NCBI RefSeq assembly: GCF_015694525.1
Contig: NZ_JADQDM010000001.1
Coordinates: 310,001 to 374,000, forward strand
Direction of reading: 5' to 3'
DNA length: 64,000 nt
Origin: Hymenobacter ruricola
GTDB taxonomy: Bacteria > Bacteroidota > Bacteroidia > Cytophagales > Hymenobacteraceae
The notes below the pieces were generated by a model. The model saw only the letters and a program-made list of their open reading frames with translations. It was not told the DNA's origin and ran no database searches. The translations under genes were made by a program, and so were the position numbers. The stretch's first letter is position 1. Every line of letters starts with the position of its first letter. Of the stretch, positions 24,589 through 36,936 are shown in pieces.

Positions 24589-26082
24589 ATGCTCTTAGTT
24601 GAAATTGTATTGGTGCTGGCGCTGGTCGTCTGGCAGGGCGTGGTGTTCTGGCGCAACCGCCAGCTCACCGCGCGGGTGGGAGCGATGTACCCGGCCGCCG
24701 GGGCAGTGGCGGTGCAGCCCATCCCGTTTACGGCCGCCAATCCGGACCGGAATTTTGACGTGCAGTACGACGCGCTGATGACGCGCAACGCCTCGCCGGA
24801 ATTCAACCAAATCATCACCGATACCAACGAATACCTGCTCAACAACCGCGGCGCCGCGGCCGATTTTGGCATCCTGAAGGACATCTCCGAGCGCCACGCC
24901 GAAGCGCTGGACGAGGAGATTCAGGCGCAGATTTCGACGCCGCTGTACCTGGGCTTGCTGGGCACTTTCACGGGGGCCATTCTGGGCTTGGTGTCGCTGG
25001 TGGGCAACCCCTTTGCCGAGGCCGCGGCGGACCCGGCCAAGGACACCTCGTTCAGCAACGGCGACGTGCAGCACTTCCTCGGCGGCGTGCTCATCGCCAT
25101 GATTGGCAGCTTGTTTGGCCTGGCCTTCACGCTGGCCGGCAACCAGCTGCTGAAGCAGGCCCGCGCCGGGCGCGACCGCAACAAAAACGCCTACTACACC
25201 TTCCTGCAAAAGGCCCTGCTGCCCAAGCTGAACTCCGACATGCAGGCCGGCATGGCCAATCTGAAATCGGTGCTGGACACGTTCAACGCGGAGTTCTTCA
25301 GCCAGATTCAGAACGACTTTTTCAGCAAAATCCACGAGTTTACGCCGCTCATTGCCAGCATCACGGACAACGTGAGCGTGCAAAAACGCTTCCTGGAGCA
25401 GTTGGAGAAAATCGGCTATTCGGAGCTGGCCAATGCCACCATCAAGGTGTTTGATAGGGTGGACGAAAGCGCCCAGACTTTCGAAAAATTTCTGGGCTAC
25501 CAGCAGGCCCTGAACAACACCGTGACCCACGGCGCCGAAGTGGCGCAGGTGATTACCGCGCTGCTCAACCGCCTCACGGCCCTGGAGCAGGGCTTGGCCA
25601 GCGTGCCGCAGTACCTGCAGCAGCACGACGATGCTCTACGCCAGCAGGTGGCCTTCTTCAGCCAGCACGGCAAGCTGCTGGCCGACCTCGGCGCCCAAAT
25701 CCGCCAGGGCGTGAGCGAGGGCGTGCACCGCATGGACGTGGAGCTCGACGGCCGCCTGCTGGAGCTGCAAAAGGAAGCGACCGAGGCCCATGAGCAGTGG
25801 CAGCGTCACTTCCGCGAGCTCAACCAGAACAACGTCTACCAGAAAATCACCGAGTACCTCAACCCCTTCACCCAACTGCCAGTGCAGCAGCAGCAGCTCA
25901 ACAGCCTGCAGGAGCGCCAGGCCTCGGTGCTGGCCCAAGCCATGCAGCGCATGGAAGCCCGCCTGCAAGCCGACTCGCAGCTGCAGCAGGCGCTCTTGCA
26001 GCAAGTAGACCGGACTAACAAGGTGCTGGAAGAAATTACCCGGCCCAACTGGTTTCAGCGGAATATTTTGGGCAAGAAGTAG
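24589..26082 (+). CDS. MotA/TolQ/ExbB-type channel protein with long coiled-coil tail (ZorA-like architecture)
   Basis: 497 residues. TM1 is at 2-22 and a loop follows with YLLNNRGAAADFGILKDI. TM2 (118-139, STPLYLGLLGTFTGAILGLV) and TM3 (163-184, FLGGVLIAMIGSLFGLAFTL) carry the MotA/TolQ-type proton-channel signature, with Gly/Thr-rich packing faces. From about 190 to the end the protein is almost all helical and Gln/Leu-rich, ending NWFQRNILGKK. That is a long cytosolic tail as in ZorA-type motor proteins rather than flagellar MotA. The MotB/OmpA-like partner follows. Expected to form a proton-driven inner-membrane stator acting on the cytosolic tubulin/actin components; that coupling is inference. 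Confidence 0.85.
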   Translation: MLLVEIVLVLALVVWQGVVFWRNRQLTARVGAMYPAAGAVAVQPIPFTAANPDRNFDVQYDALMTRNASPEFNQIITDTNEYLLNNRGAAADFGILKDISERHAEALDEEIQAQISTPLYLGLLGTFTGAILGLVSLVGNPFAEAAADPAKDTSFSNGDVQHFLGGVLIAMIGSLFGLAFTLAGNQLLKQARAGRDRNKNAYYTFLQKALLPKLNSDMQAGMANLKSVLDTFNAEFFSQIQNDFFSKIHEFTPLIASITDNVSVQKRFLEQLEKIGYSELANATIKVFDRVDESAQTFEKFLGYQQALNNTVTHGAEVAQVITALLNRLTALEQGLASVPQYLQQHDDALRQQVAFFSQHGKLLADLGAQIRQGVSEGVHRMDVELDGRLLELQKEATEAHEQWQRHFRELNQNNVYQKITEYLNPFTQLPVQQQQLNSLQERQASVLAQAMQRMEARLQADSQLQQALLQQVDRTNKVLEEITRPNWFQRNILGKK

Positions 26083-26165
26083 CGCGAACTTTGTAGTTCG
26101 CGTTCCCGCGCCGTTAACAGTTGTTCGAGCATCGTTTGGGGACGCGAACTACAAAGTTCGCGCTA
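26080..26165. repeat. Nested palindromic repeat, family D
   Basis: Arms 26080-26103 and 26142-26165 (TAGCGCGAACTTTG core). Each arm is itself a smaller palindrome (CGCGAAC with GTTCGCG). The element begins at the stop codon of the MotA-like gene. Sister copies lie at 48507 and 53091. Confidence 0.9.
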
Positions 26166-26200
26166 CTAATCAGCCACCATAAGCCTCAATCTCCTCACCC

Positions 26201-26860
26201 ATGAAAGAAAGCAAGGACTTCTTCTGGCCCAGCTACGTGGACCTCATGACGGCCTTGTTCCTGACCATGCTGGTGCTGTTTGTGCTCAGCTACAAGCTGT
26301 TTAAAGACAAGCAGCGCGACAACGACAAGCTCATCTACGACCTCAAGGTGCAGGTGGCGGAGAAGCGCAAGCTCGACGAGATAAAAGCGGCTCTGAAGCG
26401 CTTAGAAAGCAATTATTTCATCTACAACGAGCGCTATAAGCGCTACGAGCTCAACTTCCCCGTCACGTTCTCGCCCCAAAGCGCGGTGCTGCCCGCCGAG
26501 GCGCAGGCCCCGCTGGTGAAGGCCGGCCGCTTTTTGCTGAGCCAGATGCAGGCCATCAAGAACGACGACAACGTGCAGTACCTCATTGTGGTGGAAGGCC
26601 GCGCCGCTAAAGACCTGCGCTACCCCGCCAACGACCCGCACAACGCCGACGGCCCCGGCGTGCGCCAGCTCAGCTACAACCGCGCCCTGGCCGTGATTCG
26701 GCTGTGGGAGCAGGCCGGCCTGCGCTTCCCCGCCAACCTGGAGGTGGTGGCGGCGGGCAGCGGCTTCCGCGGGGCCGGGCGCTACACGGGCAGCCAGGAG
26801 GCGCTGAACAAGCGGTTTATCATCCAGGTGCAGCCTAAGATTGGCTCGATTGGAAAGTAA
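26201..26860 (+). CDS. MotB/OmpA-type stator partner (ZorB-like)
   Basis: 219 residues. A single N-terminal transmembrane helix (YVDLMTALFLTMLVLFVLSY) carries Asp14 at the position of the proton-binding Asp of MotB/ExbD/ZorB. A helical stalk (about 35-70) leads to an OmpA/MotB-like domain: FPVTFSPQSAVLPAEAQAPL, YLIVVEGRAAKDLRYPAND, and QLSYNRALAVIRLWEQAG, the peptidoglycan-contact helix. Gene order MotA-like then MotB-like is conserved for such stators. It closes the operon and is followed by a terminator-bearing repeat. Periplasmic anchoring to peptidoglycan is expected from the domain. Confidence 0.85.
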   Translation: MKESKDFFWPSYVDLMTALFLTMLVLFVLSYKLFKDKQRDNDKLIYDLKVQVAEKRKLDEIKAALKRLESNYFIYNERYKRYELNFPVTFSPQSAVLPAEAQAPLVKAGRFLLSQMQAIKNDDNVQYLIVVEGRAAKDLRYPANDPHNADGPGVRQLSYNRALAVIRLWEQAGLRFPANLEVVAAGSGFRGAGRYTGSQEALNKRFIIQVQPKIGSIGK

Positions 26861-29279: not shown

Positions 29280-29888
29280 CTACAGCCGCTTGAGGCCGGC
29301 GGTGGCCGCCGCGTCGCCGGGCCGGATGAGCAGGGCCTTGGTGTAGAGGGCGCGGGCTTCGGCTTTTTTGCCGAGGTTGAGGTAGGCCCAGGCCAGCGAG
29401 ATGTTGGAGTCGTAGTCGAAGGGGTAGAGGTTGACCACGCGCTCGAAGTAGCGGGCGGCGGGGCCGTAGGCTTTGCGGTTGAGGTAGATGACGCCGGCCC
29501 AGTAGTTGGCCTGGGTGTTTTGGGGGTCTACTTTCAGCACGTCGGTGTAGAGGCCAAGCATTTTCTCAACCTGCCCCAGCGCGTTCAGCGGCTTGATGAG
29601 GCCGAACTTGGGCTCGATGGCGTAGGGGCGCTGCTCCACGGCTTTCTGGTAGTGAGCGGCGGCGGCGGTGTAGTTTTTGGCCAGGAAATAGAGCCAGCCC
29701 AGGCGCAGGTTCTGCTCGTAGGTGCCCGTGTAAATGGCCTTGAGGGGCGCGATGGCGTCGGCGTAGTCGGCCTTGGCTTCGGCGGCGTAGCTGCTGGCGA
29801 AGGCCGCCGCCTGGTCCTGGGCACGGGCCGCGGCCGGGGCCACGCAGGCCAGCGCGGCGGCGGAAAAGGTCAGCTTTACCAGGTCCAT
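29280..29888 (-). CDS. Exported TPR-repeat protein
   Basis: 202 residues. A signal peptide (LTFSAAALACVAPAAARAQ) precedes four to five tetratricopeptide repeats (NLRLGWLYFLAKNYTAAAAH, YAIEPKFGLIKPLNALGQV, ANYWAGVIYLNRKAYGPAAR, NISLAWAYLNLGKKAEARAL). Periplasmic protein-protein interaction scaffold. The start overlaps the end of the upstream TPR/barrel gene by 13 bp, so the two are translated together; they probably work as a pair at the outer membrane. It is the last gene of the minus-strand set that begins at 36804. Confidence 0.85.
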   Translation of the reverse strand: MDLVKLTFSAAALACVAPAAARAQDQAAAFASSYAAEAKADYADAIAPLKAIYTGTYEQNLRLGWLYFLAKNYTAAAAHYQKAVEQRPYAIEPKFGLIKPLNALGQVEKMLGLYTDVLKVDPQNTQANYWAGVIYLNRKAYGPAARYFERVVNLYPFDYDSNISLAWAYLNLGKKAEARALYTKALLIRPGDAAATAGLKRL

Positions 29889-31126
29889 GCGAGGGCGGTG
29901 CTAAGGGAGTGCAAGGAATAAAAGCGGCCGTCGATGCTGTCGCGGCGGCGCTCGGCGCCGTAGCTCAGGCGCAGCGACAGCGGGCGGCTCAGCAAAATAA
30001 GCAGGTTGGCGCCGCCGCGCTCGCGCACGGGGTCGAGGAGGTTGTAGACGTAGGTGCCGTCGAGTTCGGCCAGCGCGGGCGTCAGCCCCGTGCCGGCGTA
30101 GGCTTCGAGCCAGAGCTGGCGGCGCAGCCGGCCGCCGGCGCCCAGCACGCCGTGCGGGTAGCTGCGGCCGCCCGAGCGCAGCACGCTGGCCCGCCCGAAG
30201 CCGTAGAGGCGCAGGTTGCCCAGCGGGTAGGCGGTCAGGCGCAGGTCGGCTTGCAGGCGGGCGGTGTCGGTGAGGGTGCCGGCGAACACGCCGGCCTGCA
30301 CCGTCCAGTGGGGGCGGGCGTAGGCCAGGGCGGCGTAGCCGAGGTCGTCAGCGCGGTTGGTGAGCAGGCCCAGGTCGCTGCTGAGGTGGTTGTAGCCGAG
30401 CAGCGCGCGCCAGCGCGGGGCCAGCTGCGCGCCCAGCAGGGCGTGGTACTGCCCCTGGCGGAGCGGGTACCGGCGGCCGGCGCCGGGCCGGCGGCGGTCG
30501 GGCAGCTCCACGGTCTGGCCGAAGTAGCTCACGTTTTGGTTGAGGCTGACGCGGGCGCTGAGCCGGCTGCTGACGTCGAGCCGGCAGTAGCCGGCGTCGC
30601 CCCGGTGCGGGTTCTCGGCCCGCTGGCCGCTGGCTTCCACTTCCGCCTGGGTGAGGGCCTGGAAGGGCAGCAGGTGCAGGGGGCGGCGCAGGGAGTCGGG
30701 CAGGCGGGCGGCCAGCAGCGCGGCGGGGCCGCCCTGGTTGAGGCCGAGGTAGGCGAGGGCCAGGCCGTAGCGGGCGGCGGTGTCGAGCGGGTTTTCGCGC
30801 AGGGCGCGGCCGTAGTGGCGCAGGGCCAGGGCGGGCTTTTCGCGGGCCAGGGCGGCCTGGCCCAGCCGGCGGCGCAGGGCGGGGTAATCGGTGCCCAGGC
30901 GCAGGGCGGCGCGGCCCACCGAGTCCAATTCGGCCCAGCGGTACTCAGCGGCCAAGGTTTGGGTGAGGCTGTCGGCGTAGTGGAAGTCGGTCAGCTGCTG
31001 GCTTTGCGCGCGCAGCAGGCCGAGGCCGCAGCAACCCAGTAGCAGCGCCAGCCGCCACCAGCCGCGGGTGCCCCATTGCCAACGCGGCGGCCTGCTCTCC
31101 GCGAAAAAGTCCATTCCCCGCCTCAT
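29876..31126 (-). CDS. TPR plus outer-membrane beta-barrel protein
   Basis: 416 residues. Signal-like hydrophobic segment (WRLALLLGCCGLGLLRAQS), then a few TPR-like helices up to about residue 155 (ALRHYGRALRENPLDTAARY). The second half has alternating aromatic beta strands ([52 protein letters not shown]) ending in STALAWTW. That is a barrel with a terminal aromatic residue. The ATG overlaps the stop of the urea-transporter/M23 gene as ATGA, arguing for this start and for coupling. Likely an outer-membrane partner of the exported TPR protein downstream. Cargo unknown. Confidence 0.75.
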   Translation of the reverse strand: MRRGMDFFAESRPPRWQWGTRGWWRLALLLGCCGLGLLRAQSQQLTDFHYADSLTQTLAAEYRWAELDSVGRAALRLGTDYPALRRRLGQAALAREKPALALRHYGRALRENPLDTAARYGLALAYLGLNQGGPAALLAARLPDSLRRPLHLLPFQALTQAEVEASGQRAENPHRGDAGYCRLDVSSRLSARVSLNQNVSYFGQTVELPDRRRPGAGRRYPLRQGQYHALLGAQLAPRWRALLGYNHLSSDLGLLTNRADDLGYAALAYARPHWTVQAGVFAGTLTDTARLQADLRLTAYPLGNLRLYGFGRASVLRSGGRSYPHGVLGAGGRLRRQLWLEAYAGTGLTPALAELDGTYVYNLLDPVRERGGANLLILLSRPLSLRLSYGAERRRDSIDGRFYSLHSLSTALAWTW

Positions 31127-33810
31127 GCGCCCGCCACGGAAAAGGTGAGGTGGACGGCGGTGCCGGCCCGCTGCACGCGCAACTCGGAGATGCGTCCTTC
31201 CTGCACCAGCAAGGCGGCGGTTTGCGTCTCGCGCTCGCGGCCAAACCAGGCCACGGCCACGCGGCTGCGCAGCCGCACGGTGCGGCCAGCCCAGTCGCTG
31301 GCCTCGGTGGGGGCTTCGGCCAGCGAAAACGTGGGCTTCACAAACCGGTAGAACGGCGCCAGGAAGTCCTGCGCCCAGGTCAGGGCCGCATTGCCAACGA
31401 CGGTCAGCGGAAATTCATCCGTGGTGAGCTGGCCCGGCAGGCTCGCCAGCGGCACCCGGTAGGCGGCCCGGTACAGCAGGTAGAGCCACGACGCTTCGGA
31501 CCCATAAAAGGCCGTGAAATAGAACACGGACTCGTCGCCGCCGAAGTAGGCCACCGCGCCCGTGGCGTGGCAGCGCAGGTAGGGCAGGTTGTAGGCGTCG
31601 GTGAACACCTCCCAGCGCTGGGCCGGGGCGTCGGGCGCGTTCACGGCGCGCACGTCCAGCGCGTAACCGGGCGGGAAGCGAAAGGCCTGGGCCAGGGTGC
31701 GGTTGAAAGCGGGCGGGCGCACGGTTTCGCCCACCACGGGCACGGCGAAGTGGCGCAGCTCGGGCCTGGGCCGGGAATCCGGGGCCCCAACATCCCGCCC
31801 CGAAGCCATACCGGAAAACTCCGGGGTGGCCGCAACGTGGGTTTTTATCACCCCGGAGTTTTCCGGTATGGCAAAAATGTACGCCGAAGGCATGTCGGAG
31901 TTTTCCGGTATGGCCACAACGTACATTTTGGCCACTCCGAAGTTTTCCGGTATGGCTTCGACGTACATTTTGGCCACTCCGGAGTTTTCCGGTATGCCTT
32001 CGACGTAGGTTTTTGCCATACCGGAGTTTTCCGGTATGGCTTCGACGTACATTTTTGCCATTCCGGAGTTTTCCGGTATGGCTTCGACGTACATTTTTGC
32101 CATTCCGGAGTTTTCCGGTATGGCTTCGACGTAGGTTTTGGCCACTCCGGAGTTTTCCGGTATGGTTTCGACATGCGTTGCGGTCCTACCGGAAAACTCC
32201 GGGGAGCCCGCCCACCGCCCGGCCGCACGCTCTGGCCCCGCTGGCCGGCTGGGAGGCTCGGCCACGAAGTAGGCCAGCGGGTAGGCCACGGTGCGCGAGC
32301 CCACGTAGGGCGTGGCCTGCACCTGGAAGTGCAGATGGGGCTCGGGCGAGCGGCCGGAGTTGCCGCAGGTGCCCACAATGTCGCCCCGGCGCACGTGCTC
32401 GCCCACTTTCACCGGCACCGAGTGGGCCCGCAGGTGCGACAGCTGGGTGTAGAGGCCGGGCGCGTGGCGCAGCACCACGGTATTGCCCCAGTTCCGGGCC
32501 AGGTTCACGTCGCCCACGGCGTTGTCCTCAATGTGCTGCACGACCTCCGCCACCACGCCGTCGGCGGGGGCCAGCACCGGCTTGTTGTAGGCGTAGAAAT
32601 CGGAAACCGAGCGGCCAGCGCCCTGGTAGCTGCGGCCGTCGGCGTCGACGATGGCGAAGTCCAGCGCCTGGCCCCAGTCGCCGAGGTGGGTGGGCCCCCC
32701 GTCCTGGTACCCCTGGGTGCAGCGCCACGCGCCCAGGAAGGGCAGGGTGAGGGCCACCGCCCCCTGGTGGGCCAGCCGCACGCGGTCGGTGGCGTGGGCG
32801 TAGAGGTTGCGCTCGGGCGAGTAGCGCTGCACGGGCGTGAGCACGAGGCCCGCGCCGGGCCGCTCGCGCAGCAGCAGCACGTAGAGGAACAGCAGCGCCG
32901 TGACGCAGTAGGGCAGCGACAGCGCGGGCAGCCCCAGCTTGTCGAGCAGGGCCGTGAGGCCGGCCAGCAGCAGCACCGTCACGGGCACGCTGCCCAGGGC
33001 CCAGCCGTAGCTGGCCGCCGAGGGAATGACGAACACGCCGCCCACGGCCATGGCCGCCACCAGGTAATTAGCCCCGAGGTTGTACTCGTTGAGCCCGCCC
33101 GCCGCCGGCCCCGCCAGCGCGCTCAGCCCGTAGGCCACCAAAAACGCCAGCCCCGACAGCGAAAACGCAATGCGCGAGTGCCACAGCAGCCCGCCGGCCA
33201 CCAGCAGCCCGGCCAGGGCATTGTCCTGAAACAGCACCGCGCCCAGCGCCCGCAGGTAGGTGGCCAGCAGCGGCGGCCAGGGCCAGTCGGCCACCCACTG
33301 GGCCAAGCCCACCAGCCGCGGCCCGCCCACGGCGTACACGTCGTTCAGCCAGTACACGCTGCCCTCGGCGGCCGCCAGGTGCAGCAGCGGCCCGCTGCCC
33401 AGCAGCAAGAGCCACGTGGTGAGCAGGAAGGGCAGCGACAGAAACGGTAGTCCGCGCCCGCCCAGCCAGCCGCCGAGGGCCACGCTCAGCAGCAGGGCCA
33501 GGGCGGCGCCCACCGCCACCAGCCCCGCCAGCGCCCAGCCCGGCGCGTAGCAGGATGCCAGCGCCAGCCCGGTCAGCAGGGAGTTGAAGCTGTAGGCGCC
33601 CGCGTCGGTCCATTCCCTATTGAAGCCGGCCAGCCGGGCGCCGGCCACCGCCAGCGCCGCACCCGCCAGCCCCGCCACCCCGGCGGCCGGGTGGCTGAAC
33701 GTGACCAGCAGCAGCACCGCCGCAAAGCCCCGGTGCTGCGAAAAGAACAGCATGGCGTAGCTGTGCAGCACGGCGCGAAAGAAAGAAGGAATGGAAGAGG
33801 TGTTTGTCAT
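31123..33810 (-). CDS. Urea-transporter-like membrane domain fused to M23 metallopeptidase, with 42-bp coding repeats
   Basis: About 895 residues. The N-terminal 330 or so are a urea-transporter-type membrane domain (FFRAVLHSYAMLFFSQHRGF start, then AYSFNSLLTGLALA). The middle is an M23 endopeptidase (LGDWGQALDFAIVDADG, VLAPADGVVAEVV, CGNSGRSPEPHLHFQVQ with HLH zinc ligands) that would cut peptidoglycan peptides in the periplasm. Between it and a C-terminal beta-rich domain lie eight copies of a 14-residue unit (IPENSGMAKMYVEA), encoded by exact 42-bp repeats. I took ATG 33810; the longer frame to 33993 merely translates a repeat. ATGA overlap couples it to the barrel gene. The urea-transporter/M23 fusion is known in Bacteroidota; the substrate here is untested. 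Confidence 0.8.
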   Translation of the reverse strand: MTNTSSIPSFFRAVLHSYAMLFFSQHRGFAAVLLLVTFSHPAAGVAGLAGAALAVAGARLAGFNREWTDAGAYSFNSLLTGLALASCYAPGWALAGLVAVGAALALLLSVALGGWLGGRGLPFLSLPFLLTTWLLLLGSGPLLHLAAAEGSVYWLNDVYAVGGPRLVGLAQWVADWPWPPLLATYLRALGAVLFQDNALAGLLVAGGLLWHSRIAFSLSGLAFLVAYGLSALAGPAAGGLNEYNLGANYLVAAMAVGGVFVIPSAASYGWALGSVPVTVLLLAGLTALLDKLGLPALSLPYCVTALLFLYVLLLRERPGAGLVLTPVQRYSPERNLYAHATDRVRLAHQGAVALTLPFLGAWRCTQGYQDGGPTHLGDWGQALDFAIVDADGRSYQGAGRSVSDFYAYNKPVLAPADGVVAEVVQHIEDNAVGDVNLARNWGNTVVLRHAPGLYTQLSHLRAHSVPVKVGEHVRRGDIVGTCGNSGRSPEPHLHFQVQATPYVGSRTVAYPLAYFVAEPPSRPAGPERAAGRWAGSPEFSGRTATHVETIPENSGVAKTYVEAIPENSGMAKMYVEAIPENSGMAKMYVEAIPENSGMAKTYVEGIPENSGVAKMYVEAIPENFGVAKMYVVAIPENSDMPSAYIFAIPENSGVIKTHVAATPEFSGMASGRDVGAPDSRPRPELRHFAVPVVGETVRPPAFNRTLAQAFRFPPGYALDVRAVNAPDAPAQRWEVFTDAYNLPYLRCHATGAVAYFGGDESVFYFTAFYGSEASWLYLLYRAAYRVPLASLPGQLTTDEFPLTVVGNAALTWAQDFLAPFYRFVKPTFSLAEAPTEASDWAGRTVRLRSRVAVAWFGRERETQTAALLVQEGRISELRVQRAGTAVHLTFSVAGA
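31811..32202. repeat. Eight-unit 42-bp coding tandem repeat with inverted caps
   Basis: CCGGAGTTTTCCGG-type cores occur with TTTT at 31859, 31901, 31943, 31985, 32027, 32069, 32111 and 32153, exactly 42 bp apart. Copies of the core in opposite orientation flank the array (31811-31824 and 32189-32202). All lie in frame in the M23 fusion gene: forward units read PENSG and caps read PEFSG. Confidence 0.93.
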
Positions 33811-33990
33811 TGCGAGTGGAGCGCAGCGGAACGCGGCAATCCGTCCTGTAAATGCGACCAGCCTGATAACCTCAGACTGTTTTTTGAAGTGGTGAGTGGC
33901 TAATGAAGAACTTTCTGGGTTAGGCAAGTTGGTCGCATTGGGAGGACGGATTGCCGCGTTGCGCTGCGCTCCACTCGCAATGACAAACAC
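33800..33990. repeat. Palindromic repeat, family C
   Basis: Left arm begins near 33800 (GTGTTTGTCATTGCGAGTGG) and is mirrored up to 33990. The start codon of the urea-transporter/M23 gene (33808-33810) lies inside the left arm. It fills the gap to the decarboxylase gene. Confidence 0.88.
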
Positions 33991-33993
33991 CAC

Positions 33994-35337
33994 CTACCGC
34001 AGGTGTGCCGGCACCTGCTCCAGCTGCTGCAGGTATTCCAGCGTCTCGGCGGCTCTTATCAGGTGCACCTGGGCTGTCTGGTCAATCAGCACCACGTTGG
34101 GGCGCAGGTTGATGAACTGCTGCCACTGGCTGAGGTTGTAGGCGCCCACTTTGTGCACCAGCACGTGGTGGCCGGGCGCGAGCAGGGGCAGGGCAATGCT
34201 TTCGCGCAGCATATCAATGTTCATGCACAAAGGTCCGTAGAGCACCGTGGGCTCGGTTTGGTTGGAGAATTCGCGGGTGGGGCTGATGTGGTGGTCGTAC
34301 CAGAAAGAAGTGAAGAGCAGGTTCACGCCAAAGTCGAGGATGGTGGCGCGGCGGCCGTCGGCCAGGCGCTTATTCGCCAGCACCGTGCCGATGAGCGAGC
34401 CCGCGTCGTCCACCAGCGCCCGGCCCGCTTCCAGCACCAGCACGGGCAGCTCGCCGCTCCTGAAGCCCGCGCCCAGCAAGGCCCCGGTGATGGCTTCGGC
34501 GTACTCGTCCAGGCTCGGCACGGTATCGGAGGCGGGCAGGTAGGCGCCTTTCAGCGTGTTGGTGGAAGGAAAGCCGCCGCCCAGGTCGAGGTATTGAATG
34601 GAAGTATTCAGCTCCCGCTCGCAGCGCAGGGCCAGCGCCGCCAGCTTGGCGGCCGCCGTGGCGTAGGCCGCCGTTTGCAGGATGTACGTCCCGATGTGGC
34701 AGTGCAGGCCCACCAGTTCCAGCCGCCCCGGGGCCACGATGCGGCCCAGCGCCTGCCAGGCTTCGCCATTCTCCAGGTTGAAGCCGAACCGGTCCCACTG
34801 CGGCACAATGCCGGCGTCGAGGTTCACGCGCAGGGCCACGCGGGGGCGTTGAGGCCGGCCGGCGGCCACGTCCAGCAGCAGGTGCAGCTCGTCGGCGTGG
34901 TCGAGGTGAATCACGGCGTCGACTGCGCAGGCGCGTTCCAGGTCGGCGCGCCGCTTGCCGGGCCCGTTGAAGAGGATGTGCGGGCCGGGCACCCCGTTGA
35001 GCAAGGCCTTTTCCAGCTCCATGCCGCTCACCACCTCCGCCCAGGCGCCCTCCTGGTGGAAGGTGCGGCACACGGCATTCAGGTAGTTCGTCTTATAGGA
35101 CCACGCCAGCTGCACCTGCGGGTAGCGCGTGCCGAAGGCCCGCACGGCGGCCTGGTAGCTGCGCCGCAGCTGCCGCTCGCTCAGCACAAACAGCGGCGAG
35201 CCGAAGCGGGCCACCAGCTCGTCCACCGCCACGCCATCCAGGGCCGTCACGGCGCGGGCCCCGGCGCGCGGGCCAAACTTGTTCAGCGCGCCGGCCGTGA
35301 GCTTGCGCAGGGTGGGGCGTTCGTAGGGGAGTTTCAT
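33994..35337 (-). CDS. Type III (alanine-racemase-fold) PLP-dependent decarboxylase
   Basis: 447 residues of the DapDC/ornithine-decarboxylase class. The PLP Lys lies in LAWSYKTNYLNAV. HCHIGTYILQ, YLDLGGGFPSTNT and LVLEAGRALVDDAG form the barrel face, and YGPLCMNIDMLRES near the C-terminus supplies the partner-subunit Cys. It differs from housekeeping LysA in sequence and setting: PqqD-like and ATP-grasp genes lie upstream. The natural substrate could be a diamino acid or a ligated peptide product; not decidable here. Separated from the ATP-grasp gene by a family B repeat. Confidence 0.88.
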   Translation of the reverse strand: MKLPYERPTLRKLTAGALNKFGPRAGARAVTALDGVAVDELVARFGSPLFVLSERQLRRSYQAAVRAFGTRYPQVQLAWSYKTNYLNAVCRTFHQEGAWAEVVSGMELEKALLNGVPGPHILFNGPGKRRADLERACAVDAVIHLDHADELHLLLDVAAGRPQRPRVALRVNLDAGIVPQWDRFGFNLENGEAWQALGRIVAPGRLELVGLHCHIGTYILQTAAYATAAAKLAALALRCERELNTSIQYLDLGGGFPSTNTLKGAYLPASDTVPSLDEYAEAITGALLGAGFRSGELPVLVLEAGRALVDDAGSLIGTVLANKRLADGRRATILDFGVNLLFTSFWYDHHISPTREFSNQTEPTVLYGPLCMNIDMLRESIALPLLAPGHHVLVHKVGAYNLSQWQQFINLRPNVVLIDQTAQVHLIRAAETLEYLQQLEQVPAHLR

Positions 35338-35375
35338 GGGGTGTAATTAGGGGGCGGGCGAGGCGGAGAAGGCGC

Positions 35376-35478
35376 CTGTCATCCTGAGCGCAGCGAAGGA
35401 CCTTCTTCCCGATGAACAATTTGCCGTAAACAATTGCTGCGGACGTGAGAAGGTCCTTCGCTGCGCTCAGGATGACAG
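35376..35478. repeat. Palindromic repeat, family B (CTGTCATCCTGAGCG)
   Basis: Perfect 31-bp arms at 35376-35406 and 35448-35478 with a 41-bp centre, between the ATP-grasp and decarboxylase genes. Confidence 0.92.
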
Positions 35479-35499
35479 CCGCTCGCCCGCCATCACCCT

Positions 35500-36558
35500 T
35501 CAAAGCTCGCCCAGCGCCGCCGCTTGCTGGAACTGGGTGTGGTCGGTAATCAGGTCCCAGGCGTAGCGCACGAACATTTTGCCCACCGCGTAGCCGTCCA
35601 TCAGCGGCACGGGCAGGCCCAGCGCCAGGCGGAGCAGGGCCGCCGGCTGGTTCTGGCCGGCGGCGGCCGTGAGGTATATCCAGGCCGGGAAGCGCGGGTT
35701 GATTTCCATGATGAACAGTTCATCGCCCGGCGTGCGCATGATTTCCAGCTCGAAGCCGCCGCGCCAGCGCGTGGCCTCGGCAAAGCGGCGGGCCAGGGCC
35801 AGCAGAGCCTCGTCTTCGAGCGTGATGCCGGCCCAGGCCTTGCCCTTGTCCGTGATGGTGAGCTTGCGCATGGGCACCGCGCTCAGGGCCCGGCCGTGGC
35901 CGTCGCCCAGCCCGGCGATGTTGATTTCCTGTCCCGCCACGTACTGCTGCGCGATGAGCGGCACGCCCCACAGCCCGCTCAGCCTTAGAAAGGCCTGCTC
36001 CGCCTGGGCCAGCGAGTGCACCACGGCGGCATCGTAGTAGCGGCCCTTCAGCACCAGCGGCCAGCCCAGGGCCTCGGCTGCGCCCGCCACTTCGGCCACG
36101 GCGTGCAGCAGCCGGCCGGGCGGCACCCGCAGGCCGTGCGCCGCCCCGAAAGCCGGCAGGTTCAGCTTGTCGCGGGCCTCCAGCTGCGCCAGCGTGGGCA
36201 AAAAGGTCTGGATGCCCAGCGCCCGCAGCTCCGGCGCCAGCTTGATGAAGTTGTACAGCTCGGCGTCAAAATTCGGGATGAGCACGGCCACGTCCTCCTG
36301 CTCGCGCACGTAGCGCAGGCGCTCCAGCAGCGCCGCCGTGCCGGCCGAGGGGTAGGGCAGCTGGTAGGTGCGGTCCACCAGCTCGCGCAGGTAGATGCCC
36401 GGCTCCAGTGCCTCGTAGCTCAGCCCGATGATGCGCAGGTCGAAGTCCGGGCTTTCGCGCAGGGCGCGGATGACGGCCACGCCCGGGCCGGGGCTGTCGG
36501 TGGCGTTGAGGCCGGTCACGGCCACCGTGAGGCGGGGGCGGGCAGCGGGGAGGGGCAC
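35500..36558 (-). CDS. ATP-grasp ligase
   Basis: 352 residues. A pre-ATP-grasp domain begins LTVAVTGLNATDSPGPGVAV. The ATP-grasp fold follows: WPLVLKGRYYDAAVV (nucleotide-binding Lys), IAQQYVAGQEINIAGLGDG, and GGFELEIMRTPGDELFIMEI with NPRFPAWIYL (Mg-binding Glu/Asn). This resembles carbamoyl-phosphate-synthase-type and amino-acid or peptide ligases. Six bases separate it from the upstream PqqD-like gene, so the pair is surely co-translated. That pairing is typical of peptide-modifying or RiPP-like systems; the substrate is unknown. Confidence 0.87.
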   Translation of the reverse strand: MPLPAARPRLTVAVTGLNATDSPGPGVAVIRALRESPDFDLRIIGLSYEALEPGIYLRELVDRTYQLPYPSAGTAALLERLRYVREQEDVAVLIPNFDAELYNFIKLAPELRALGIQTFLPTLAQLEARDKLNLPAFGAAHGLRVPPGRLLHAVAEVAGAAEALGWPLVLKGRYYDAAVVHSLAQAEQAFLRLSGLWGVPLIAQQYVAGQEINIAGLGDGHGRALSAVPMRKLTITDKGKAWAGITLEDEALLALARRFAEATRWRGGFELEIMRTPGDELFIMEINPRFPAWIYLTAAAGQNQPAALLRLALGLPVPLMDGYAVGKMFVRYAWDLITDHTQFQQAAALGEL

Positions 36559-36564
36559 GGCGGG

Positions 36565-36804
36565 TTAGTCTAGCAGGTTGAATTCGCGCAGCTGGGCCAG
36601 CAGGTCGTCCCAGTCTTTTTCGAGTTGGCCCGGGGCCACGTCGTAGCGCTCCAGAATGTCGGCTTTGATGGCCACCGGGTCCAGGCCGTCCTTGGCGCGG
36701 GCCAGAATGTCGGCCGCCAGCGGGTTGGCCGAGAAGGAGTCGCCGGTGGCGGGGTTGAAGATGAAGCCGGATTCGCTGGTGGCAATGTTCTTTTTGAGCT
36801 TCAT
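36565..36804 (-). CDS. PqqD-like small protein (peptide-binding RRE type)
   Basis: 79 residues from ATG 36804 (MKLKKNIATSESGFIFNPAT); a start at 36819 would add five residues. The pattern GFIFNPATGDSFSANPLAAD, ADILERYDVAPGQLEKDW and AQLREFNLLD matches PqqD-family winged helices that hold leader peptides for RiPP enzymes. It is first in a row with an ATP-grasp ligase and a PLP decarboxylase. No obvious precursor peptide gene is seen next to it, but one too short to notice could lie in 36805-36962 or elsewhere. Confidence 0.75.
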   Translation of the reverse strand: MKLKKNIATSESGFIFNPATGDSFSANPLAADILARAKDGLDPVAIKADILERYDVAPGQLEKDWDDLLAQLREFNLLD

Positions 36805-36850: not shown

Positions 36851-36936
36851 CATGCCGAGCGCAGCGAAGCATCTTGCCCGCCGCCACTAATTATTGATTA
36901 CTGACCCGGGCAAGATGCTTCGCTGCGCTCGGCATG
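36851..36936. repeat. Palindromic repeat, family A
   Basis: Perfect 30-bp arms 36851-36880 and 36907-36936 (CATGCCGAGCGCAGCG core), between the PqqD-like gene and the gliding-CTD gene. Confidence 0.92.

Follow-up and report, generated by a model that had tools for sequence, protein, structure and literature searches.

The stretch of DNA analysed here, referred to as the window, comprises 64,000 nucleotides of Hymenobacter ruricola (assembly GCF_015694525.1, contig NZ_JADQDM010000001.1, positions 310,001 to 374,000). On its reverse strand, three consecutive genes encode a small PqqD-like protein, an ATP-grasp ligase and a pyridoxal phosphate (PLP)-dependent type III decarboxylase. The PqqD-like protein belongs to the discrete recognition elements (RREs) known from the biosynthesis of ribosomally synthesized and post-translationally modified peptides (RiPPs), and the N-terminal tail of the decarboxylase resembles the leader sequences to which such elements bind. 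The central features are the following:

36565..36804, (-) strand: PqqD-like discrete RRE, 79 aa, ATG start (PF05402, 37.3 bits vs cut-off 23.4)
35500..36558, (-) strand: ATP-grasp ligase, 352 aa, GTG start (PF15632, 40.1 bits vs cut-off 29.1)
33994..35337, (-) strand: PLP-dependent type III decarboxylase, 447 aa (PF02784 and PF00278)
35272..35325, (-) strand: leader-like tag of the decarboxylase, residues 5-22 (Y5...P8...L10...K20-F21-G22)
36613..36615, (-) strand: codon of RRE Asp64, which would hold the tag Tyr (Asp at the aligned position of TbiB1 and TfuB1)
36724..36726, (-) strand: codon of RRE Asn27, the LppB N33 equivalent by spacing (Asn in 119/120 aligned rows)

The PqqD-like stop codon is separated by six bases from the start of the ATP-grasp open reading frame (ORF), and all three genes lie in one shared reading frame in the window. 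ORF coordinates and Pfam matches agree with an earlier, sequence-only reading of the window, which had described a PqqD-like protein 6 bp from an ATP-grasp ligase and then a type III decarboxylase. Three differing palindromic repeats with a common GAGCGCAGCG occupy the gaps preceding the downstream urea-transporter (UT)/M23 metallopeptidase gene, the decarboxylase gene and the PqqD gene (window 33799-33991, 35372-35482 and 36851-36936, respectively). They look inserted, since the corresponding genes nearly touch in many other loci.

Genome samples, all within Bacteroidota, were used to determine the distribution of these genes, with ATP-grasp relatives counted at E 1e-20 or better. A close relative of the ATP-grasp ligase was present in 34 of 395 genomes sampled phylum-wide (about 9%) and in 31/390 genomes of an order-level sample, and plasmid records gave no match at the same threshold. 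Only seven of 59 near relatives, counting the own genome and all within the genus, carried the PqqD protein, so that its distribution is patchy. For comparison of gene order, we used 39 other loci, namely those of 33 other phylum-sample genomes (a single place per genome, without the second copy in G181) and of six genus genomes; about 18 kb of surroundings were fetched per locus, less at contig ends, and genes were located by tblastn. The PqqD, ATP-grasp, decarboxylase and UT-M23 genes were found in identical order and on the same strand in 39/39 loci. Neighbouring genes frequently overlapped or nearly touched, and a single locus (L070) was loosened, with its PqqD gene 2 kb upstream. Among named GTDB genomes, a scan returned at least 562 ATP-grasp relatives, the nearest of which, among the matches listed, were from Hymenobacter. 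The best 80 of these at least 562 were kept, and PqqD, ATP-grasp and tagged decarboxylase occurred together in all 80 further loci. A UT-M23 match was seen in 71 of them, the other nine lying mostly on contigs that ended soon after. The sequence-only reading had named a lack of conservation of the trio among the results that would refute its proposal; the trio was retained in order and strand throughout the 39 loci. The trio heads a conserved, previously uncharacterised Bacteroidota operon. In full-text searches of openly licensed papers, neither this operon nor an RRE-tagged decarboxylase was described among the matches listed; a survey of amidoligases published in 2009 by Iyer and colleagues may mention the neighbourhood.

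The PqqD-like protein is the only PF05402 match of its own genome; it scores above the family cut-off and, at 79 aa, lies within the size range of a stand-alone domain (up to about 110 aa). When a profile of 32 operon PqqD proteins was compared with the PDB, the lasso-peptide RREs TbiB1 (E 2.8e-13) and TfuB1 (E 2.9e-10) were the best matches, with true PqqD at 1e-3. In LppB, as described in PMC13381572, the kink at the leader Pro is fixed by Asn33, and the leader Tyr receives a hydrogen bond from Asp70; the equivalents of these residues by spacing are Asn27 and Asp64. Asn27 is conserved in 119 of 120 aligned operon rows, position 54 is Tyr or Phe in all 120 and the remaining pocket positions are mostly conserved in kind. 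Asp64, which a profile alignment places with an Asp in both TbiB1 and TfuB1, is present in 115/120 rows, the five exceptions being the five rows in which the decarboxylase tag carries Phe in place of Tyr. A role of the PqqD protein as a carrier like LysW, with a C-terminus that reacts, was also considered; it was rejected since neither the length nor the sequence of the C-terminus is constant over 40 rows.

The tag of the decarboxylase reads, in window numbering, Y5-E-R-P8-x-L10...G16...K20-F-G22. A motif [Y/F]xxPx[ILV] opens the operon decarboxylase in 146/146 non-duplicate rows, which consist of the first 120 and 26 further ones (13 duplicates were left out, as were L173, L175, L193, L194 and L195, where one gene was unmatched in the fetched piece). 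Over these rows the consensus is Y130/F16, E144, P146, [ILV]146, K146 at +15 and G145 at +17. The tag fits the lasso-leader motif [Y/W]xxPx[L/V/I/F/A], which is recognised by discrete PqqD-type RREs according to PMC13381572. In lasso leaders, YxxPxL spans positions -17 to -12, the processing residue lies at -2, corresponding to +15, and the core starts from +17 (PMC10368454); the tag Lys at +15 is found in the same register as this processing residue. The strict tag occurred in 0/19 readable LysA frames (28 loci fetched, nine of them unparsed), and both paralogues of the own genome, LysA and an arginine-decarboxylase-like protein, lack it. A loose form of the motif was present near the N-terminus of about nine of some 650 other long ORFs in the same 39 loci, by hand count. 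When the decarboxylase was modelled by itself with AlphaFold, the predicted local distance difference test (pLDDT) score was below 50 over residues 1-26 while most of the enzyme body was confident, a model in which the tail appears loose or flexible. Judged by these sequence comparisons, the "missing precursor" of the RRE would be the tail on the operon's own decarboxylase.

Variation at the tag Tyr was accompanied by variation at RRE position 64. Among the first 120 rows, a tag Tyr was combined with Asp64 in 115/115 cases and a tag Phe with Tyr or His at position 64 in 5/5. The 26 further rows comprised 14 Tyr/Asp and 11 Phe/Tyr combinations as well as one Tyr row in which the PqqD stop lies just before codon 64. 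In that row, L180, codon 63 of the PqqD gene is a nonsense codon, and its Asp64 was therefore set aside. In combination, Tyr-tagged rows had Asp64 in 129/129 readable cases and Phe-tagged rows lacked it in 16/16. The Phe rows form a single clade, supported by Shimodaira-Hasegawa-like approximate likelihood ratio test (SH-aLRT) values of 98 and 96, and the Tyr/Asp change therefore represents one evolutionary event. Columns that were near-fixed outside the Phe clade and lost inside it were PqqD 64 (one of six) and decarboxylase 5 (one of 106); all 59 such columns of the ATP-grasp ligase were retained, and the stem of the clade makes up 0.5% of the tree length. The single event is telling because PqqD 64 and decarboxylase 5 alone were lost, on a stem this short. 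As a separate observation, the L180 genome (G787), with the nonsense codon 63 in the operon PqqD, has an intact ATP-grasp frame and also a lasso-type peptidase gene.

The sequence-only reading had noted that no precursor peptide was seen. Clustering of 1849 small ORFs from 119 loci, over about -4 to +8.5 kb, likewise yielded no phylum-wide family other than PqqD and the frame antisense to it, in a search that covered linked sequence only. A lipoprotein-like small ORF was discarded as a precursor candidate: it recurs in 10 loci, only of Hymenobacter type, about 2.6 kb upstream in those shown. The lasso B2 leader peptidase family (PF13471) was absent from the own genome and from 65/70 operon genomes, and present in five of the 70. 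Since no small ORF other than PqqD is conserved across the 119 loci and the lasso peptidase is missing from 65/70 operon genomes, the operon is not an ordinary RiPP cluster. Of the RiPP or amino-acid-ligation logic first proposed, the RRE-type PqqD protein, with lasso RREs as its best PDB matches, and an ATP-grasp ligase and decarboxylase that fit ligation are retained; a pathway with a separate precursor is not, given that no precursor gene was found, that the lasso peptidase is absent from this genome and from 65/70 operon genomes and that the leader-like sequence is on the decarboxylase. In three Phe-tag genomes, separate lasso-type pairs, in which PF13471 adjoins another PqqD, were found on a contig other than that of the operon (G176:C12, G392:C37 and G168:C6). 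An initial distribution of lasso peptidases, in 3/5 Phe-tag vs 0/26 other genomes, had raised the idea that the Phe tag insulates the operon from lasso pathways. This idea was dropped when, among 39 additional genomes, the peptidase turned up in no other Phe-tag genome and in two Tyr-tag ones (G708 and G787).

With discrete lasso RREs (TbiB1, TfuB1/FusB1) and with LppB of linear polyphosphorylated peptides, the operon protein shares PF05402, the Asn and Asp positions and the ligand motif. In contrast to those systems, the motif is on the N-terminus of a metabolic enzyme instead of a small precursor peptide, and no lasso peptidase is found in the operon or its genome. The PqqD-PqqE pair of pyrroloquinoline quinone synthesis likewise has a small free-standing PqqD-type protein beside its enzyme, but the operon has no radical S-adenosylmethionine enzyme among its genes and no conserved PqqA-like small ORF.

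The two enzymes were then compared with characterised relatives. In NCBIfam, the ATP-grasp ligase is carbamoyl-phosphate-synthase-like, below cut-off; across 27 homologues it has 51 invariant columns, EINPR among these. The best NCBIfam match of the decarboxylase was TIGR01048 (LysA) at 218.8 bits, under the cut-off of 297.9. Operon copies were below this cut-off in 30/30 other genomes, of which 28 have a separate, above-cut-off LysA; on these scores and this co-occurrence, the operon decarboxylase is not LysA. Its Met372 stands where Methanocaldococcus jannaschii diaminopimelate decarboxylase has an aligned Glu. The closest solved structure was the N-citrylornithine decarboxylase FslC/FigC of the rhizoferrin pathway (7kh2, 303 bits), an enzyme whose substrate is an amino acid in amide linkage (PMC7857480). 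A substrate of this kind, supplied by a ligase, would be common to both systems. By alignment with that enzyme, Met355/Met372, Tyr383/Tyr400, Arg290/Arg306, Thr327/Thr343 and Tyr331/Tyr347 correspond (the second residue being that of the operon enzyme), whereas the citrate contacts His357 and Arg387 are replaced by Ile374 and Gln404. The family NF041039 (N-citrylornithine decarboxylase) was matched at 205.4 bits vs 500, again with the citrate contacts replaced, and the ligase differs as well, being an ATP-grasp enzyme and not a nonribosomal-peptide-synthetase-independent siderophore (NIS) synthetase. Because Met372, Tyr400 and Arg306 are shared and both citrate contacts are not, the alignment suggests an acylated or otherwise conjugated amino acid, not a citryl one, as substrate. 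Ligation by the ATP-grasp enzyme followed by decarboxylation would yield an amide-linked amine. Both enzyme kinds also occur in butirosin synthesis, where BtrJ performs an ATP-grasp ligation step preceding PLP decarboxylation, and BtrK is among the solved relatives of the operon decarboxylase (148 bits). In contrast to that pathway, no acyl carrier protein was matched among the scanned operon genes, and the small protein of the operon is an RRE.

Downstream of the decarboxylase, the operon continues on the same strand, in line with the membrane/M23 and outer-membrane genes of the sequence-only reading:

31123..33753, (-) strand (ATG at 33753 or 33810): fusion of UT and M23 metallopeptidase domains plus an unnamed C-terminal domain (PF03253, 160.8 bits; PF01551, 64.3 bits)
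29876..31126, (-) strand: tetratricopeptide repeat (TPR) + outer-membrane beta-barrel-like protein (weak TPR matches)
29280..29888, (-) strand: TPR protein (TPR families)

Both family matches of the fusion exceed their cut-offs of 25 (PF03253) and 28.7 (PF01551). The two domains are probably active, as the UT domain aligns along its length with solved urea channels and the M23 metal-site residues His356, Asp365, His440, His473 and His475 (numbered from ATG 33753) are present in 96/96 homologues. A 42-base in-frame tandem repeat (window 31896-32172, 6.6 copies, 91% match) adds a 14-residue IPENSG-type repeat between the M23 and C-terminal domains. A TPR gene came next in 36 of the 39 loci. A homologue of the TPR/outer-membrane protein was found in the same place in 14/39, and in others a different barrel-like protein followed the TPR gene. 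Upstream, in L051, L053, L055-L058, L060-L062 and L066, the PqqD gene is preceded on the same strand by a family of secreted proteins of about 280 aa with a type IX secretion sorting tail; they sit about 1 kb upstream of the ATP-grasp gene and are possibly a client or cargo of the system. Further away in the window, 24589-26860 (+) encodes a membrane protein and then a MotB-like protein weakly matching ZorB of Zorya defence (E 2.8e-7).

On balance, we favour a reading in which the RRE grips the N-terminal tail of the decarboxylase and likely docks this enzyme to the ATP-grasp ligase, within an operon that makes and handles a small amide or amine. Tyr5 would insert into the first RRE pocket and be held by Asp64, Pro8 would be kinked against Asn27 and Ile/Leu10 would fill the second pocket, with the tail pairing with the RRE as an added beta-strand. 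This grip would bring the decarboxylase to another partner, most likely the ATP-grasp ligase, so that the amide made by the ligase could be handed to the decarboxylase; the UT channel/M23 fusion, the beta-barrel and the TPR proteins may then move or trim the product. Here, we infer the binding of the tail by the RRE, the ATP-grasp ligase as partner, the order of the reactions and the transport.

Several points weigh against this reading. Contact between the RRE and the ATP-grasp ligase enters it by inference only, and the Tyr/Asp correlation, as a single event, could have arisen by chance. A scan for mutual information gave no general enrichment for pairs of a tag and an RRE column, the tag-groove mean being equal to background, and the Tyr5-Asp64 pair ranked 47 of 35,313. 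The RRE residues were equated with those of LppB via spacing and hidden Markov model (HMM) alignment, not superposition. Finally, an AlphaFold model of the window read-through of RRE, ligase and decarboxylase as one chain, with the four stops read as Gly, left the tag unstructured and showed no docking. This poor model carries slight weight against the reading; its predicted TM-score (pTM) was 0.50, the alignment was 11 rows deep at the RRE, and the RRE hairpin and the tag had pLDDT below 50. The RRE formed helices at 28-38, 43-53 and 58-74 in it, the low-scoring N-terminal hairpin coinciding with the shallow alignment.

The conserved distal part of the tag could instead mean that the decarboxylase is both an enzyme and a leader-tagged precursor, with the RRE presenting the tail to the ATP-grasp ligase for covalent modification, for instance at Lys20, to give a tethered substrate or a matured N-terminus. 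We regard this as a tentative, rather unlikely alternative. Lys at +15 in 146/146 rows and Gly at +17 in 145/146 speak for it, as does the lasso-leader register with its key residue at +15 and its core from +17 (PMC10368454). A distal portion of an RRE-bound leader that makes no obvious RRE contact is, moreover, proposed in PMC13381572 to meet the modifying enzyme. The tail Lys and Gly could, however, simply contact the ligase, and with the lasso peptidase family absent from 65/70 operon genomes, cleavage at the look-alike junction would be left without a known enzyme. A version in which a RiPP-style leader was grafted onto the enzyme, the RRE offering Lys20-Phe21-Gly22, the ATP-grasp ligase attaching an amino acid and the decarboxylase decarboxylating the tethered group, would make the tail a ribosomally made carrier arm; this seems to us distinctly unlikely.

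We consider it improbable that the PqqD protein leaves the tag unbound and that the decarboxylase keeps this sequence in order to fold, to dimerise or to close its active site. The tag does belong to the enzyme, and the weak read-through model left it off the RRE. Against this, the decarboxylase model shows the tag without structure, its sequence agrees with the RRE ligand motif, the related decarboxylases examined lack it, and it changes together with the RRE residue proposed to hold it. An ordinary RiPP pathway with its precursor gene elsewhere in the genome and an incidental decarboxylase tag is very improbable. RREs and ATP-grasp enzymes are frequent among RiPP parts and unlinked RiPP precursors are known, yet no conserved small ORF was found from about -4 to +8.5 kb in the 119 loci (unlinked loci were not searched), and a tag in 146/146 rows is unexpected of an incidental sequence. 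Finally, TIGR01048 as the best NCBIfam match (218.8 bits) might indicate a second diaminopimelate decarboxylase for lysine with unrelated neighbours; with operon copies under 297.9 in 30/30 other genomes, a separate LysA in 28 of these and Met372 in place of the M. jannaschii Glu, this is hardly to be entertained.

The presence of an RRE is used to flag RiPP clusters. Where no precursor gene accompanies them, stand-alone PF05402 proteins either go unexplained or are regarded as false positives. If an enzyme can carry a leader-like tag, as favoured here, orphan RREs of this type would gain a function that can be tested, that of docking adaptors for small-molecule pathways, and enzyme termini, besides small ORFs, would be worth searching for RRE ligands. 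An unstudied operon, present in about 9% of the phylum genomes sampled (34/395), thereby becomes a concrete biochemical question. Its architecture suggests that RiPP-type recognition may have been borrowed for assembling ordinary enzymes.

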